Positions 543-10,430 of a DNA stretch of 10,430 nucleotides are shown one piece after another; the first letter of the stretch is position 1, and each line of letters opens with the position of its first letter. A program made the position numbers and the translations under genes. The stretch covers positions 1 through 10,430 of the forward strand of contig CAJQMX010000188.1 in NCBI GenBank assembly GCA_905479515.1. The letters run 5' to 3'. Source of the DNA: an uncultured Parasphingopyxis sp. (GTDB taxonomy: Bacteria; Pseudomonadota; Alphaproteobacteria; Sphingomonadales; Sphingomonadaceae). Below the pieces are notes generated by a model, which was not told the DNA's origin, did no database searches, and was given only the letters and a program-made list of their open reading frames with translations.

Positions 543-1847
543 TTATTCAACTTCAATGGCAGGCGGCAAACCTAGCTCTTCAAGCACTTCAGCTATGTCT
601 TGACTGGCCAACCAAATTAAAAAGCCTTTGTCCACGATGTTCATCCGTGTATTTGTGCCATCATAATCGATAACGAGCGGGCGAATATTTTTCTTGTTTT
701 GGAGAGATGATGCAGAATTTAGAATCTGAGTAATATTTCCGTTGTTTAAAGAATCACCTTTTGGATGCTGCGCCTTAATAATTTTCGCAACTTTTCGCAG
801 TCGAATACCTTCCTCCAGCTCTTCGAGAGGGCAACAAAGAAGGGCGAAAATGACCCATTTCGGCATTTCCAGATCAGTCTCTTGGAAACCATCTACAAAA
901 CCGTGGAGGAAGCCTTTGTATCGACCTGCCTGCTGAGACACAATGTCGGCAACCAGTGCTTTTACGTCCATACCGCCGCCAATTTCTATAAATTCACTTT
1001 GTGTCTCGAATATTCCGCATTCTCTAGCAGTGCGCCGACAAGCTTCTTGGACAATATGAACGCTTTCGAAGGCTTGACTTATCAGTGGTTCGATAAAGCT
1101 CTCTGCGAAACTGATATTTAGTAGAGCACCTCCATCGTTGATGACCTCCTTCAAGCTGTCTGGATTCCAACTATCAACATCGACCGAAATAACACGATCT
1201 GTAAGATCACCATTAAATGCAATCAGTCGATTTTCTTCACGCCAAACACCTACCACGATAAATGAAAAATCCGAGGCTTCATGGAACGTCTTCAATGAAA
1301 AACTAAAGTCTCTTTGCGTTTCGTCAGGCAGATAATGAAAGTCTTCCAATACTATATATTTCTTAAAGCCTATGCTTTCCAAAGCTCTAATTATATCGTT
1401 CGCAGACTCCGCATCTAGTTCGAGCTCAAGGTATTCAACTTTATTTTCGTTAGTCTCCGTGTCCTCTGCGGCCACCTTTCCTCCTATTCTTCCAAATAGA
1501 GGAAGGTCGATACCCCCATTCATTTCCACAGAGATTTTATTTGATCCCGTTTCACTTTTTGTTTCAGATTGTTTTACCGCAAAACCGGCTTCCTTGAGAA
1601 CATTTGAGTGCAAGGTGGCCAAATTCCAACGATTTTGGCAGGAAATAACAATGTAGTCTTCTTCCAATAGGCATTTTTTCCGAAGAGATGTTTTGCCTTG
1701 TTTAGAACTTCCATAAATTACAATATGTTGATTGCGTGCCAAACTATCGATAAAAGTCTCATCAACTTTGGGCCGAGAGACATAATTCTCCGGTAAGTCG
1801 CGGCTTACGCCAAACACATCGTCGGTTGTGTGATGATTAGCAGCCAT
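543..1847 (-). CDS. P-loop ATPase, candidate STAND/AAA-like, AT-rich islet
   Basis: A 434-residue protein. The Walker A motif is G46-SSKQ-GKT53. The probable Walker B is YIVLED at 164-169. A hydrophobic strand FIVVGVW (196-202) fits a sensor-1 position, and residues 328-415 look like a winged-helix region (KVAKII, then NITQILNSAS, then a DGTNTRMNI wing). The N-terminal phrase FGVSRDLPENYVSR leading into the P-loop suggests a dedicated ATP-binding family related to STAND or Orc-type ATPases. Exact family and role are unrecognised. The ATG start at 1847 is supported by AGGAG 7 nt upstream on the minus strand. The gene is markedly more AT-rich than both neighbours and stands alone, flanked by a convergent SnoaL-like gene and a broken DUF2442 gene, which suggests horizontal acquisition. 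No transmembrane segment or signal peptide is seen, so it is probably cytoplasmic. An antiphage role is possible but unproven. Confidence 0.8.
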   Translation of the reverse strand: MAANHHTTDDVFGVSRDLPENYVSRPKVDETFIDSLARNQHIVIYGSSKQGKTSLRKKCLLEEDYIVISCQNRWNLATLHSNVLKEAGFAVKQSETKSETGSNKISVEMNGGIDLPLFGRIGGKVAAEDTETNENKVEYLELELDAESANDIIRALESIGFKKYIVLEDFHYLPDETQRDFSFSLKTFHEASDFSFIVVGVWREENRLIAFNGDLTDRVISVDVDSWNPDSLKEVINDGGALLNISFAESFIEPLISQAFESVHIVQEACRRTARECGIFETQSEFIEIGGGMDVKALVADIVSQQAGRYKGFLHGFVDGFQETDLEMPKWVIFALLCCPLEELEEGIRLRKVAKIIKAQHPKGDSLNNGNITQILNSASSLQNKKNIRPLVIDYDGTNTRMNIVDKGFLIWLASQDIAEVLEELGLPPAIEVE

Positions 1848-3064: not shown

Positions 3065-3238
3065 ATGGGTGAACTTCTGGACAGGCTGAAAGGCAATGTG
3101 AACGAGGCGGTCGGCAAAGCGAAACGCAAGAGCAACGACCCCGAGACCCGCGCCAAGGGCGCCGCGCAGGAAATCAAGGGCAAGGCCCAGCAGGTCAAGG
3201 CCTCGCTGAAGGCGGAGCTGACCAACGATATCAAATAG
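3065..3238 (+). CDS. CsbD-family stress-response protein, copy 1
   Basis: A 57-residue, highly charged, Lys/Ala/Gln-rich protein beginning MGELLDRLKGNVNEAVGKAK and continuing SNDPETRAKGAAQEIKGKAQ. This is the CsbD pattern: an amphipathic helical repeat with G-x-A/V-KG motifs. A longer in-frame start at 3011 is rejected because the ATG at 3065 has AGAGGAGAA directly upstream and the product then matches family length. CsbD proteins are small, probably disordered or helical soluble proteins induced by general stress (sigma-B controlled in Bacillus subtilis). Their molecular role is unknown. A paralogue of 56 residues lies at 4743. Both share the same downstream arrangement of terminator then REP repeat. 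Confidence 0.92.
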   Translation: MGELLDRLKGNVNEAVGKAKRKSNDPETRAKGAAQEIKGKAQQVKASLKAELTNDIK

Positions 3239-3326: not shown

Positions 3327-3381
3327 TGCGTGGTGGTGGGGATGCCGGTCCCGGGGTGCACCGGTTGTCGCCGCGCGCGGT

Positions 3382-3490
3382 CCGTTCGTGCTGAGCTTGT
3401 CGAAGCATGAGTGGGAATAGCTGAACCTGCCTCATAGACGCCGTCGTTGACCTGCGGTCGCCTTCGGCTCGACAGGCTCAGGACGAACGG
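3382..3490. repeat. REP pair A (inverted, BIME-like)
   Basis: The left arm CCGTTCGTGCTGAGCTTGTC (3382-3401) and the right arm CTCGACAGGCTCAGGACGAA plus CGG (3468-3490) are near-perfect reverse complements. They flank a centre containing GAGTGGGAATAGCTGA. The same arms and centre recur at 3527-3613 and 5090-5177. This copy is the longest, with about 20 extra bases before the right arm. The 3239-3630 gap otherwise holds only the csbD terminator and spacer DNA. Confidence 0.9.
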
Positions 3491-3526
3491 TGGAGGTGGA
3501 CGCGCCCTGCTCTCGCCCCGACCAGT

Positions 3527-3613
3527 CCGTTCGTGCTGAGCTTGTCGAAGTACGAGTGGGAATAACCAACCCACCTTATAGACGCTGCCCTTCGACAGGC
3601 TCAGGACGAACGG
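3527..3613. repeat. REP pair B (inverted, BIME-like)
   Basis: CCGTTCGTGCTGAGCTTGTC begins at 3527, and the reverse-complement arm CTTCGACAGGCTCAGGACGA ends in ACGG at 3613. The centre keeps GAGTGGGAATA and TATAGACGCTGCC, shared with copies A and C, so the whole 87-bp unit is the repeat and not just the arms. It ends 17 bp from the stop codon of the minus-strand JmjC gene and could serve as that gene's 3' hairpin. Confidence 0.9.
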
Positions 3614-4742: not shown

Positions 4743-4913
4743 ATGGGTGAACTCGCAGACAAGGTAAAAGGCAATGTCAACGAAGCGGTTGGCAAGGCCA
4801 AACAGAAAAGCAACGACCCCGAGACCCGCGCCAAGGGTGCGGCTCAGGAAACCAAGGGCAAGGCCCAGCAGGTCAAGGGCTCCGTCAAGGGCGCTCTCGG
4901 CGACAAGGTCTAG
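4743..4913 (+). CDS. CsbD-family stress-response protein, copy 2
   Basis: A 56-residue CsbD-like protein (MGELADKVKGNVNEAVGKAK, then QKSNDPETRAKGAAQETKGK). It differs from copy 1 at only a few positions in the first 45 residues and diverges in the tail (GALGDKV versus AELTNDIK). Nucleotide identity is also high in the SNDPETRAKG and KGKAQQVKG codons, which indicates a fairly recent duplication or gene conversion. The ATG at 4743 has AGGAG 7 nt upstream. The longer in-frame start at 4677 lacks such a site and gives an atypical N-terminus. The family is a general-stress group of unknown mechanism. It is followed by its own terminator and a REP pair. Confidence 0.92.
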   Translation: MGELADKVKGNVNEAVGKAKQKSNDPETRAKGAAQETKGKAQQVKGSVKGALGDKV

Positions 4914-5019: not shown

Positions 5020-5089
5020 GGTTGGGGGTGCTGGAAAGATGGGGAGTGGTGGATTTGATTGGGGTTTGAGTGCACGCACGGCACACGCT

Positions 5090-5177
5090 CCGTTCGTGCT
5101 GAGCCTGTCGAAGCACGAGTGGGAATAGCTGACATTGCCCTGCGACGACTGCCCTTCGACAGGCTCAGGGCGAACGG
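5090..5177. repeat. REP pair C (inverted, BIME-like)
   Basis: CCGTTCGTGCTGAGCCTGTC starts at 5090, and the complementary arm CTTCGACAGGCTCAGGGCGA ends in ACGG at 5177. The centre GAGTGGGAATAGCTGA is identical to copy A. It ends 20 bp before the stop codon of the minus-strand lipoprotein gene, matching the placement of copy B beside the JmjC gene. Confidence 0.9.
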
Positions 5178-5197: not shown

Positions 5198-5788
5198 TTA
5201 GGAACAAGCCTCGACATAGCCGAGCACCGGCATCGTGCCGACGTGAATCTGGCTGATCTTGCCGTCGCTGCCGATTTCGAAGCGCAGAGCGGGGTCGCCG
5301 CGGGCGGCATTGGGAGCGGTCAGATATTTAGCCGGCGGGTCGCCATATTTATGCGGCGTGGCGGGGAAGGCAAAATATTGTTTCATCGTCGCTTCGCGGG
5401 CGCCGGGACCAATGCCCTCGACCAGCTTGACCTTCGAGCCCTCGCTGATCGAGATGCGGCGAACCTTGTTCGCTTCGACAATCGCATAAGCATCGGGATA
5501 GTCGGGCGAGGACAGCACGCGACAGGCATCGGATGCCTGCACGCCTTCCGCTTTCCAGCTGCTGGTGGCAGGAACCGGCTCGCCAATCCGCAGATCGCCG
5601 AGACCGGCGAGTGTGAGCGTGTTTGCCGATGGCGCGGGGTCGGGTTCGGGGGCGCTCTGTTCTGGTGCCACCGCCGGTGCGGGCGTCACAGAAACTGTCT
5701 CGTCCGCGGCTGGCTCGGGGTCGGGGGAGGATTGCGATGAACAGGCCGCCAGTAGCGCGAGCGGGATCAGGGAGAGAGTTTGTTTCAT
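5198..5788 (-). CDS. Hypothetical proline-rich lipoprotein
   Basis: A 196-residue protein. The signal peptide MKQTLSLIPLALLAAC ends with lipidated Cys16. A Pro/Ala/Glu-rich linker (about 17-55) probably spans the periplasm. A globular domain (about 57-196) contains LRIGEPVP, a strand-rich centre (YAIVEANKVRRISISEG), PHKYGDPPAKYLTA and RFEIGSDGKISQIHVGTMP, and ends in VEACS. Cys88 and the penultimate Cys195 could form a disulfide. The domain resembles uncharacterised lipoproteins of proteobacteria, and no function is known to me. The envelope location is inferred from the lipobox. The ATG at 5788 has only a weak Shine-Dalgarno. The RT gene ends 68 nt upstream in the same direction with no obvious terminator between, so read-through from the RT gene is possible. 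Confidence 0.8.
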   Translation of the reverse strand: MKQTLSLIPLALLAACSSQSSPDPEPAADETVSVTPAPAVAPEQSAPEPDPAPSANTLTLAGLGDLRIGEPVPATSSWKAEGVQASDACRVLSSPDYPDAYAIVEANKVRRISISEGSKVKLVEGIGPGAREATMKQYFAFPATPHKYGDPPAKYLTAPNAARGDPALRFEIGSDGKISQIHVGTMPVLGYVEACS

Positions 5789-5856
5789 GTTGGGTTTACG
5801 CGGGAGTGGGGGGAAGGTTGCGGGGTGGGGTCAGTTAGTACGTTGACGTTCCGTTT

Positions 5857-7539
5857 TTAGTCTCCGTAAGTTGAATACGAAAAATCTCTCGGCAGAACTG
5901 AGCTTACGTCCAGATTAGAAAGTTGTTCAAGGGTGATTCCACGAAGCCTCGCTGTCAGCGCAAGAAGCTCAGGCGAAACGGGCCTAGGCTTCTCTCTCGA
6001 CAGCAAACGAACATTCTTTTTGTCGTTGTAAAATGAAATTTTTCTCTTTTTCAATTCGTTGAAATAAAAGTGCTCTTGCACATGGTTGGGGTTTGGCGAT
6101 GGGAGCCATCCTTTTAAATTTGCCTCATATGCAAGTAACCACATCTCAGAGTCGAGCCCAGCCTTGGTCATGTTTTGCAACCAGACAGTTTCATCTAAAT
6201 TTCCCGATATTAACCCTTTGTCTCGAAGGTCGAGCGTTATTAGCGCACATATCGAACTTTCGAGCCTACAAACCCCCTGCAATAGATTTGCATCAATATT
6301 TAATTGCAGTGCTTTCACTAGAAACAATGCCCAACTTATCTCAAAATGACTGCCCACTGGAACATGCGTGCGAAGTATATCTTCTACCAATTTCCTCATT
6401 TTTTCTTCGCTAATATCGAAATCCATTTCACGATAATTAGCAACCAATTGAACAAATTGCGGAAAAACTGTTTTGTTAGCGCGTGCCACTCTCAAAAGAA
6501 AATTTTCAAATATTCTCCAATTTGATTTTTCAACTTTCCAACTACGCACCAATGTAATCGCGAATTTCAACACATTCGCATCAACATGTTTAATAGACAA
6601 ATCGAATGCTAACTCGAAAAAATGCTCCATTTTGCGCTGCTGAGCTTTTCCAGACTTGGGAATGACAAGGCTCAAAAGTTCGTCAGTCCAAAGAGGAGAA
6701 AATAATTTCGTTAGCTCAACAGATTTTGTTTTTTCTGGATGGATTTCCAATTGAAAAAAGTTGCACTCAGACGACAATATTGCAATATTTTCTTCTGCTT
6801 GGCTTAAAGTATCAAAACCGATGAACCAATCATCAACGTTTCTAATTGCTCCAGATTTCTTTAGCTCTAATTTTTCTGTCAATTTGTGATCTACTTCTGA
6901 CACGATCATTTCTGACAAAATTCGCGATGTATCTGGTCCGATTGGAATGCCAGCGGTTTGATTCTCGTTCCCTTTTCTCACCGCCCTATCTAATTTTGTC
7001 CCCAACAGGTCTTTGTAGGCCGCTGTATCCAAAATTGCTTTGCAATGTGATTTACCGTGTAACGCCCAAGGAATTGCATGTGTGTATAGGGTGCCGTAAA
7101 ACCGTGAGATGTCAGAAACTAAGGCATAGTCATACATGCCTGAAATCTCGCTCTTAAGCATAGACAATAGTCTAAAATCAGGCTCTTCAATCGATCTAGT
7201 TTTGTCATCCGCAATTTCTAGATGCTGTGCGCTAAAACTATTTTTGTTAATGTGTTTGCGAATTTCAACCCATTCATCTGCAATGAGCGATGAGAGATAG
7301 AATTGTGCGACCGGATTGACGATTGAAAGATCACGGCGCCAATTCCCTATTCTCGGAACCGTGAAAATTTCAGGCTTACTCTTTGGATAATCATTTCCAT
7401 TATTCCATGCCTCACCCACAGATTTTCGATATTTGGCAAGGTCCCGCGTATTGAACGGAGGAGGAAGTTCCTTCGGAAAATAACCAGAAGCTAAAAGGGC
7501 ATGTAGTCGCTTCGTTTTATTTAAGGTAAGATTAGACAT
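5857..7539 (-). CDS. Reverse transcriptase, UG/Abi (DRT-type) candidate
   Basis: A 560-residue protein. RT signatures in order: a fingers region with Arg115 (TRSIEEPDFRLLS), motif A VSDISRFYGTLYTHAIPWA with catalytic Asp143, motif B GIPIGPDTSRILSE (197-210), motif C RNVDDWFIGF with Asp236 and Asp237, and motif D FQLEIHPEKTKS (262-273). Motif C carries Asn where most RTs have Tyr or Phe. After about residue 295 the rest is predicted mainly alpha-helical, HEAT-like in look, with no recognisable maturase, endonuclease or nitrilase domain. This layout fits the UG/Abi reverse transcriptases, several of which abort phage infection by making DNA, some protein-primed and some using an adjacent RNA template. 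The exact group is not assignable by eye. Start: the ATG at 7539 has AGGA 7 nt upstream. A TTG one codon earlier (7542) is less likely, and an in-frame TGA closes the frame above it. The gene is strongly AT-rich. Confidence 0.87.
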   Translation of the reverse strand: MSNLTLNKTKRLHALLASGYFPKELPPPFNTRDLAKYRKSVGEAWNNGNDYPKSKPEIFTVPRIGNWRRDLSIVNPVAQFYLSSLIADEWVEIRKHINKNSFSAQHLEIADDKTRSIEEPDFRLLSMLKSEISGMYDYALVSDISRFYGTLYTHAIPWALHGKSHCKAILDTAAYKDLLGTKLDRAVRKGNENQTAGIPIGPDTSRILSEMIVSEVDHKLTEKLELKKSGAIRNVDDWFIGFDTLSQAEENIAILSSECNFFQLEIHPEKTKSVELTKLFSPLWTDELLSLVIPKSGKAQQRKMEHFFELAFDLSIKHVDANVLKFAITLVRSWKVEKSNWRIFENFLLRVARANKTVFPQFVQLVANYREMDFDISEEKMRKLVEDILRTHVPVGSHFEISWALFLVKALQLNIDANLLQGVCRLESSICALITLDLRDKGLISGNLDETVWLQNMTKAGLDSEMWLLAYEANLKGWLPSPNPNHVQEHFYFNELKKRKISFYNDKKNVRLLSREKPRPVSPELLALTARLRGITLEQLSNLDVSSVLPRDFSYSTYGD

Positions 7540-7680
7540 CAATCAATCCTGCATAAAATGAAAACGATTACAACTTTTCTTTGATATCTAAATAATCAAC
7601 TGGAAACATCAAACCTATGCAGTATGTTTAGTCGATAGCGCAACAATTACTGTAACAGTGCAAAAATTAATAAGACCTTA
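7540..7680 (-). promoter_or_regulatory. AT-rich leader/upstream region of the RT gene
   Basis: These 141 nt begin directly after the stop of the exported RidA-like gene and share the RT gene's AT-rich composition. Two structures are visible. ACTGT-A-ACAGT (7649-7659) is a perfect 11-bp palindrome, operator-like. CCTATGCAG (7614-7622) and CTGCATAAA (7549-7557) can pair as a 9-bp stem with two G-U pairs, and the second arm overlaps the AGGA ribosome site at 7547-7550. No convincing sigma-70 promoter was identified. It may hold the promoter, a 5' leader or a short RNA, and nothing proves any of these. Confidence 0.4.
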
Positions 7681-8139
7681 TTACTCCCCTCGCCGCTGCG
7701 CGACGATCTTGATCTCGACCACGCCTTCCGCCTCGTAGAGCGCGCTGATGCCGATCGCGGTCCAGGTGGGGAACGGGGCTTTGACATATTGGTTTTTTAC
7801 TTCGACCATTTCATTGATCGAGCTTTGCAGGTCGGTGTGATAGCTGGTCAGGTCGACGACATCGTCCCAGCTGACCCCGGCCCGTTCCAGCGTCCGGCCA
7901 ATCCGGTCGAAGGCGCGGGTGAAGGCGGGTTTGAGGTCACTCTCGCCGGGCTCTGGCGTGACGATCACGCCGGACAGATAGACCTTGTCCCCGGCGATCA
8001 CCGCATCGGCGTAGCCAACCGCTGACTGGAAGGCGAGATTCCCGGCATCTTCCGGCATGAAGACCTGTTTTGCCTCCTTCGCCTGGAGCGGTGGCGCAGC
8101 CATGGCCAGCAAAGACAGGCCGATCAGAAATTTGTGCAT
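7681..8139 (-). CDS. Exported RidA/YjgF-family protein
   Basis: A 152-residue protein with an N-terminal signal peptide (MHKFLIGLSLLAMAAPPLQA, probable cleavage after Ala20) and a RidA/YER057c fold: VYLSGVIVTPEPGE (53-66), the helix AFTRAFDRIGRTLERAG, WDDVVDLTSYHTDL, and the C-terminal VVEIKIVAQRRGE. RidA proteins hydrolyse reactive enamine/imine intermediates using an Arg in a PxR motif of the last third. Here the equivalent segment reads FPTWTAIGISAL, with Trp126 where Arg is expected, so canonical deaminase activity is doubtful. The start at 8139 is chosen over the upstream in-frame start at 8328 because it gives a clean signal peptide and has a G-rich AGGGGGG site upstream. It was probably the direct upstream neighbour of the 5198-5788 lipoprotein gene before the RT islet inserted. 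Confidence 0.85.
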   Translation of the reverse strand: MHKFLIGLSLLAMAAPPLQAKEAKQVFMPEDAGNLAFQSAVGYADAVIAGDKVYLSGVIVTPEPGESDLKPAFTRAFDRIGRTLERAGVSWDDVVDLTSYHTDLQSSINEMVEVKNQYVKAPFPTWTAIGISALYEAEGVVEIKIVAQRRGE

Positions 8140-8271
8140 ATTGTTTCCCCCCTCTGTGTGCAGCGACTCGCTGGTGAAAAAGGCTTGCCGTTGCAGGGGG
8201 TTATATTGCGCTCTTCGGTTGTCGGTCGTCAAGCGGGCGGGAGCGGTGTTGGGCGGGGCATGATATTCACG

Positions 8272-8369
8272 CGTCATCCTGAACGTGTTTACCTCCGGTG
8301 GCCTTCGGCTCAGGACCTCGAGGGGCAATATACAATCTCAAGGGATCCTGAAACGAGTTCAGGATGACG
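8272..8369. repeat. Intergenic inverted repeat, second family
   Basis: CGTCATCCTGAAC (8272-8284) and GTTCAGGATGACG (8357-8369) are exact 13-bp reverse complements around a 72-bp centre. The right half, GGATCCTGAAACGAGTTCAG, contains further local inverted structure. The family is unrelated in sequence to the CCGTTCGTG REP pairs. It lies in the 283-nt gap upstream of the RidA-like gene and 54 bp after the DUF3365 gene stop. No T-rich intrinsic terminator is seen in this gap. Confidence 0.8.
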
Positions 8370-8422
8370 ACGGTCTTTGGTTCAGCATCACAATAACAAC
8401 GACACGGCGGCGCGCTATCTGG

Positions 8423-10430
<2,008 letters not shown>

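Follow-up and report, generated by a model that had tools for sequence, protein, structure and literature searches.

The locus

The stretch of DNA analysed here, called the window throughout, comprises 10,430 nucleotides (contig CAJQMX010000188.1 of assembly GCA_905479515.1) from an uncultured Parasphingopyxis sp. of the alphaproteobacterial family Sphingomonadaceae, and carries a minus-strand gene for a reverse transcriptase (RT) of defence-associated reverse transcriptase group 6 (DRT6). Read from the right end, the gene order is thiC, a gene with a Tll0287 domain, a RidA-like gene (7681-8139, Pfam), the RT gene, a lipoprotein-like open reading frame (ORF; 5198-5788, no Pfam family matched) and a cupin-like gene, after which come a lipocalin gene, encoded on the opposite strand, an ATPase-like gene with a match to PDC-S59, and a SnoaL-like gene. 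The RT thus sits where the first-pass annotation, made by a model from the sequence without database searches, had placed it, between a RidA-like and a lipoprotein gene. Its frame is unbroken over 560 codons, from the ATG at 7539 to the stop at 5857. A TTG directly 5' of this ATG (7542) offers an alternative start that would lengthen the RT by one residue; the ATG is the likely start because an AGGA stands 7 nt upstream of it. The gene is compositionally foreign, as had been noted earlier: its G+C content is 0.404 (0.383 at third codon positions), against 0.59-0.66 (0.71-0.89) in the other measured genes of the window except that at 543-1847 (0.421). A promoter and terminator scan returned no more sites than shuffled sequences did.

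Table 1. Coordinates of the RT gene, its parts and its surroundings in the window
Feature	Position	Strand	Remarks
DRT6-type reverse transcriptase, 560 aa	5857..7539	minus	stop 5857-5859, ATG 7537-7539
RT-like domain (fingers and palm), residues 1 to ~276	6712..7539	minus	limits approximate
Alpha-helical repeat domain, residues ~284-541	5917..6690	minus	secondary structure from the model; aligns with DRT6, DRT4 and AbiK structures
Disordered C-terminal tail, residues 547-560, with Tyr555 and Tyr558	5860..5901	minus	pLDDT <50
Tyr51 codon, loop after the first helices	7387..7389	minus	rival AbiK-like candidate priming residue
AT-rich leader (30% GC)	7540..7680	minus	141 bases; AGGA before the ATG
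thiC, cut by the window end	9031..10430	minus	RT lies in the cargo hot spot of its 3' flank
Stretch replaced in genome G094 (locus L133) by 6.2 kb	5829..9061		other AT-rich, partly defence-like cargo

Domain architecture and group assignment

Three of the RT motifs that had been recognised by eye could be located: D143 lies in DISRFY, followed by GIPIGPDTSR (197-206) and VDDW (235-238), which we take to be motifs A, B and C, respectively. In an alignment of 203 sequences, D143 and D236 are each kept in all 203 and D237 in 202. Tyr148, five residues past D143, presumably occupies the steric-gate position; together with Tyr152 and Tyr471 it is far more conserved across the family alignment than the tyrosines of the tail and loop discussed below, and we presume that each of the three has a structural or catalytic role. 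The Pfam RVT_1 match barely clears its cut-off (30.9 versus 29.6 bits). An AlphaFold2 model of the RT (predicted local distance difference test, pLDDT, 88.5; predicted template modelling score 0.87) has helices from residue 284 to 541, which agrees with the helical C-terminal region of roughly 260 residues proposed in the first-pass annotation; the comparison with AbiK and DRT proteins that it had recommended aligned this region with the structures of DRT6, DRT4 and AbiK. The DRT6 fold spans residues 9-508 of the RT, helical domain included, and contains no maturase domain.

Profile and structure together support an antiphage-type (UG/Abi, class 1) RT, the reading originally given, and fix its group, which had been left open by eye, as DRT6 (which we take to be UG12). 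1) In the PADLOC scan Drt6 ranks first with 554 bits, aligning residues 10-521 of 560 to profile positions 2-494 of 511; it is followed by two Drt4-named models (494 and 474 bits), PDLC03752 (Drt4, 243 bits), AbiK (112.6 bits) and Abi-P2 (94 bits). 2) The solved DRT6 (9wy8, "hexameric DRT6") is 33% identical to the RT, compared with 22-23% for DRT4 (UG15; 9vdo, 9l9s) and 17-19% for AbiK and Abi-P2. 3) Among ten relatives labelled by the same profile scan Drt6 is best in seven, the exceptions being L019 (a Drt4-named model), L108 (DRT4) and L112 (Drt3b). A quick maximum-likelihood tree of 110 rows gives orientation only: in it the window RT joins the protein entries P0002, P0003 and P0004 with full support (100 in the Shimodaira-Hasegawa-like approximate likelihood ratio test), and this group lies in a 25-row clade (support 99) in which every one of the nine named rows is alphaproteobacterial; the other DRT groups are represented by few rows on long branches with uncertain places, and profile labels are available for ten rows and L113. 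The enzyme is a member of a group whose antiphage role and structure others have already reported, so that the case for the "new or poorly sampled subgroup" once suspected is weaker: the gene is an alphaproteobacterial branch within DRT6.

Several observations pull the other way. The best NCBIfam model is Drt4, with 212.6 bits, under its cut-off of 450; the two Drt4-named PADLOC models also score high; and in L019 such a model outscores Drt6 (648 versus 590 bits), so the borders of the named groups are not clean. At 33% identity to the solved DRT6, the window RT may differ from it in product or trigger. Further, when 82 of the 85 neighbours of 16 mostly alphaproteobacterial loci were scanned, few defence matches appeared, near relatives often lying outside defence islands: 33 models matched, the best 25 being mostly methyltransferase models with one protein each, and other matches among the models listed were a 4TM effector, capP and mad3. 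Weighing all this, we consider it quite probable that the best explanation as a whole is a DRT6-family defence-associated RT acting alone, with a mechanism read across from its relatives.

Relatives and distribution

When 5.8 billion proteins were searched, 1290 of the 7994 candidates scored matched at E<=1e-3; among the 120 matches listed, the nearest complete relatives are 66-72% identical to the RT, and the next about 44-52%. A genome scan with the single RT sequence found no matches, and one with an alignment recovered 157 relatives, from which 80 loci were kept. The kept loci at 41-49% identity (L001-L009 and L011) are all alphaproteobacterial, and the remainder, at 38% and below, come from many phyla and two archaea. 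Two of them, L004 and L005 of Devosia epidermidihirudinis, are one RT match present in two copies on a single contig, facing opposite ways and with equal statistics, either a real duplication or an assembly artefact. Housekeeping-like conservation was not found: the RT is patchily distributed, since a match at E<=0.001 turned up in only 23 of the 249 genomes searched from the family, one of these alone being close (46%, G001) and the next best standing at 33%. As for mobile carriers, no phage record covers 80% of the RT protein (five match in part), six viral contigs hold relatives at 26-33% identity, and 206 plasmid records match, the best full-length relatives being about 30% identical among the 20 matches listed.

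No partner gene recurs beside the RT in the 80 loci (79 relatives and the window), judged from 542 neighbouring ORFs within about 4 kb: the commonest neighbour family is present in eight loci, and an integrase family and one that by eye looks type I restriction-like occur in five each. In three of the 16 loci whose neighbours were scanned (L014, L020 and L022) DRT6-type genes of a sphingomonad branch adjoin a phage capsid gene (PF05065), and in L032 one adjoins an integrase, which suggests that these four are carried by prophages or satellites. On an Agrobacterium fabrum plasmid (L166:1111-6692) an AAA ATPase gene and a helicase gene are followed 15 bases on by a DRT6-type RT, an arrangement that strikes us as reminiscent of Gabija.

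Proposed mechanism and candidate priming residues

DRT4 is a single-gene enzyme that makes random single-stranded DNA; the phage protein ORF55 shields the 3' end of this DNA, leading to toxic accumulation, and also activates DRT6, whose product chemistry is called "less resolved" (PMC13213688). DRT4 is tyrosine-primed, with DRT6 listed as probably similar (PMC13314766), and the class 1 DRTs studied so far need no nucleic-acid template (PMC13174585). The priming residue lies in a loop in AbiK (Tyr44) and Abi-P2 (Tyr61; PMC9508834), lies in a C-terminal tail in DRT3b, the class 1 half of DRT3 (Y666, tail residues 622-667; PMC13174585), and DRT9 (Y496/Y498; PMC12483538), and is a serine in DRT1 (PMC13275509). 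For DRT6 itself, the portions of the published accounts examined name none.

By analogy, the RT most likely works like DRT4, AbiK and DRT3b, as a protein-primed, template-free DNA polymerase in abortive infection. It would assemble as a hexamer, as the solved DRT6 suggests, and add deoxynucleotides without a nucleic-acid template onto its own tyrosine, most likely Tyr558 (or Tyr555), yielding protein-bound single-stranded DNA. In the uninfected cell this DNA would be degraded; once a phage infects, one of its DNA-binding proteins, the part played by ORF55 in the published DRT4/DRT6 case, would shield the 3' end, the DNA would accumulate and the infected cell would stop growing before phage is made. 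The antiphage action of this particular RT is likewise presumed from its relatives.

The window RT ends in SYSTYGD, with Tyr555 and Tyr558 in its disordered tail. In its three nearest complete relatives the Tyr558 place is tyrosine in all three and the Tyr555 place in two. Among 197 relatives longer than 495 residues, the share of tyrosine is 17.4% in the last five positions versus 3.6% overall. The 203 sequences (the window included; rows >495 aa, with the AbiK, Abi-P2, DRT4 and Drt3b rows left out) were thinned to 49 at under 50% identity; a tyrosine falls among the last five residues of 32 of these 49, against an expectation of 17% (binomial p ~5e-14, with relatedness reduced, not removed). 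Glycine and aspartate are also enriched in this analysis, and lysine and arginine are depleted. Because the tail is enriched in this manner, Tyr558 (or Tyr555) is our candidate priming residue, as in DRT3b and DRT9. More generally, we tentatively propose that DRT6 enzymes are tail-primed, a disordered C-terminal arm with the priming hydroxyl (that of Tyr558/Tyr555 here, and usually of some tyrosine among the final five residues) swinging into the active site. DRT3b works with a partner RT and an RNA and DRT9 with an RNA, neither of which was found for the window gene; the single DRT4-like relative compared (L108) ends at 490 residues, without a tail of the window type. If tail priming is correct, then the loop priming of AbiK and the tail priming of DRT3b and DRT9 would be alternatives that have been switched among class 1 defence RTs. 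The choice between tail and loop tyrosine also amounts to a single-residue prediction for a family whose product chemistry a 2026 review describes as above.

Against tail priming stand the absence of a tail tyrosine in 17 of the 49 sequences and the case of AbiK (L164), whose antepenultimate residue is a tyrosine although it primes from Tyr44. The latter also favours the alternative in which the same enzyme primes from loop Tyr51, in the style of AbiK and Abi-P2, and employs its tail tyrosines otherwise. Tyr51 does lie in the loop that follows the first helices, in the part of the protein where AbiK has Tyr44, and it is at least 90% conserved in an alignment of 37 sequences (built from 36 of the 120 listed homologues). 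However, tyrosine is poorly conserved in that region of DRT6: just 16 of the 49 sequences have any tyrosine in the loop, fewer than have one at the tail end, and the solved DRT6 has an alanine at the Tyr51 position. We therefore discard Tyr51 as a universal primer and keep it as a rival for this protein, though a rather unlikely one. Fourteen of the 49 sequences have a tyrosine in neither place, and serine was rejected as a substitute, its frequency in the last six residues of the 17 tyrosine-less tails being 0.108 per residue versus 0.082 overall.

Other explanations of the gene

That the RT is a decaying or silent passenger gene appears improbable. The gene is indeed AT-rich and foreign; a 352-residue database entry (P0005), identical to the RT over 63% of the query and then divergent, may stem from a broken gene or from nothing more than the end of a contig; and in genome G161 an RT beside thiC, on its 5' side (L114, ~5965-7419, plus strand), has an internal stop in frame. 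Yet the window gene has 560 uninterrupted codons, keeps the family-invariant catalytic positions, and has relatives 66-72% identical to it that are complete and end in a similar tail.

Still less probable is an RNA-templated system of the DRT2 or DRT9 kind whose RNA was missed. Structured RNAs can evade Rfam and a 141-base AT-rich leader is present; this leader folds no better than its shuffles (z +1.28), Rfam has no match anywhere in the window and none at E<=1 within 5700-7800, and a search for transfer RNAs found none, although an RNA outside Rfam without a stable fold would escape the searches on which the single-gene status rests. The least credible alternative is an RT of a retron, group II intron, diversity-generating retroelement or other mobile element without a defence role: the matches to such RTs do not go beyond the shared RT domain (31 bits versus a cut-off of 300 for the group II model, 19 versus 235 for the retron model), and searches of Pfam, Rfam and repeats confirmed the first-pass annotation in finding no maturase domain, intron RNA, retron msr/msd or, in the 5400-8300 stretch that the aimed search covered, template/variable repeat pair.

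The thiC 3' flank as a cargo site

The RT lies 1.5-3.2 kb downstream of the thiC stop. The ThiC part encoded in the window is 92% identical to that of G001, an uncultured Erythrobacter, and up to 98% to those of other genomes of the family, which by itself makes a host from this family probable. Related genomes show the thiC 3' flank to be a hot spot where AT-rich cargo, some of it defence-like, accumulates. In G094, where thiC (92%), SnoaL (92.6%) and the lipoprotein region (80% at the DNA level) match the window, the left break of the replaced stretch falls at 5828, 29 bases from the RT stop, and the 6.2-kb replacement holds a GmrSD-type gene (PADLOC NsnA, 215 bits) and a Bro-N gene (PDC-S13, 392 bits). 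In G097 thiC is followed by a different DRT6 (Drt6 508 bits, 29% identical to the window RT) and then lipocalin, and in G211 a lipoprotein homologue comes directly after thiC, with no match to RT, RidA or Tll0287 in the stretch. At a distance of some 1.5 kb from the 3' end of thiC there is a PDC-S59 match in G215 (97 bits) and a weak one in G196 (30 bits), two of the seven genomes with any such match among the 249 searched.

To count cargo we used ORFs of at least 100 codons, chosen by length without a gene finder, with G+C more than 8 points below that of thiC. The 41 thiC 3' flanks of at least 5.5 kb were hand-picked from the match list blind to the flanks, except four chosen for their hits (two RT, two PDC-S59). 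A low-GC ORF occurs within 5 kb 3' of thiC in 32 of 41 flanks, at 5-9.3 kb in nine of 41 and on the 5' side in six of 19; the 3' versus 5' contrast (Fisher p 0.001) persists without the hit-chosen genomes (28/37 versus 5/17, p 0.002), genome kinship being uncorrected in both tests, and stands at thresholds of 6, 8, 10 and 12 points. RTs are rare at the site, that of G097 being the only one recognised in the first 5 kb of the 41 flanks.

The 53 AT-rich 3' ORFs match 124 PADLOC models at 1e-10 (several models may match one protein), including, among the best 25, Drt6, RmrA, HEC-06, capP, SspE, PDC-S13, PDC-M30B and PDC-M41B; their Pfam matches comprise GmrSD_N in three, M78 peptidase in two, a caspase, PIN domains, a kinase and a transposase. 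The last, of IS1595 type, belongs, judging by position, to the G094 replacement. Upstream, a scan of 58 of 62 ORFs gave matches to 23 models, mostly RT models explicable by one protein (best Abi-P2; probably the RT of G161), plus mad3 in two and mad8 in one; the sets are unlike (3' ORFs AT-rich and at least 130 aa; upstream ORFs of any GC, at least 180 aa, four of the longest omitted), making this comparison only indicative. The cargo of the flanks (L133-L152, L168-L186) is varied, and several of its ORFs match only "candidate" profiles or none; two without PADLOC or Pfam match, L135:6295-7482 and L139:9417-10349, are candidate undescribed defence genes. Among the papers listed by searches on thiC or sphingomonad defence hot spots none, judging by its listing, describes this site, which is not proof of novelty, and the two hot-spot papers checked do not mention thiC. 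The thiC 3' flank in this family is hence a site to mine for defence genes.

Other features of the window

The second AT-rich gene (543-1847, minus strand) is the ATPase-like one, with a PADLOC PDC-S59 match of 250 bits; a sequence search for a solved relative of it found none. Its spot beside SnoaL may be a second variable site, since G094 carries other AT-rich genes there. Dispersed intergenic repeats (CCGTTCGTGCTGAGC / CTTCGACAGGCTCAGG) occur in both orientations at 3373-3431, 3518-3576 and 5081-5139, accompanied by partly complementary repeats at 3462-3490, 3585-3613 and 5149-5177, and G094 has several stretches similar to the dispersed set. Further repeats are a 19-base inverted pair (8272-8290 and 8351-8369) and a 148-base direct duplication, 84% identical (3065-3212 and 4743-4890), that flanks the cupin-like gene.
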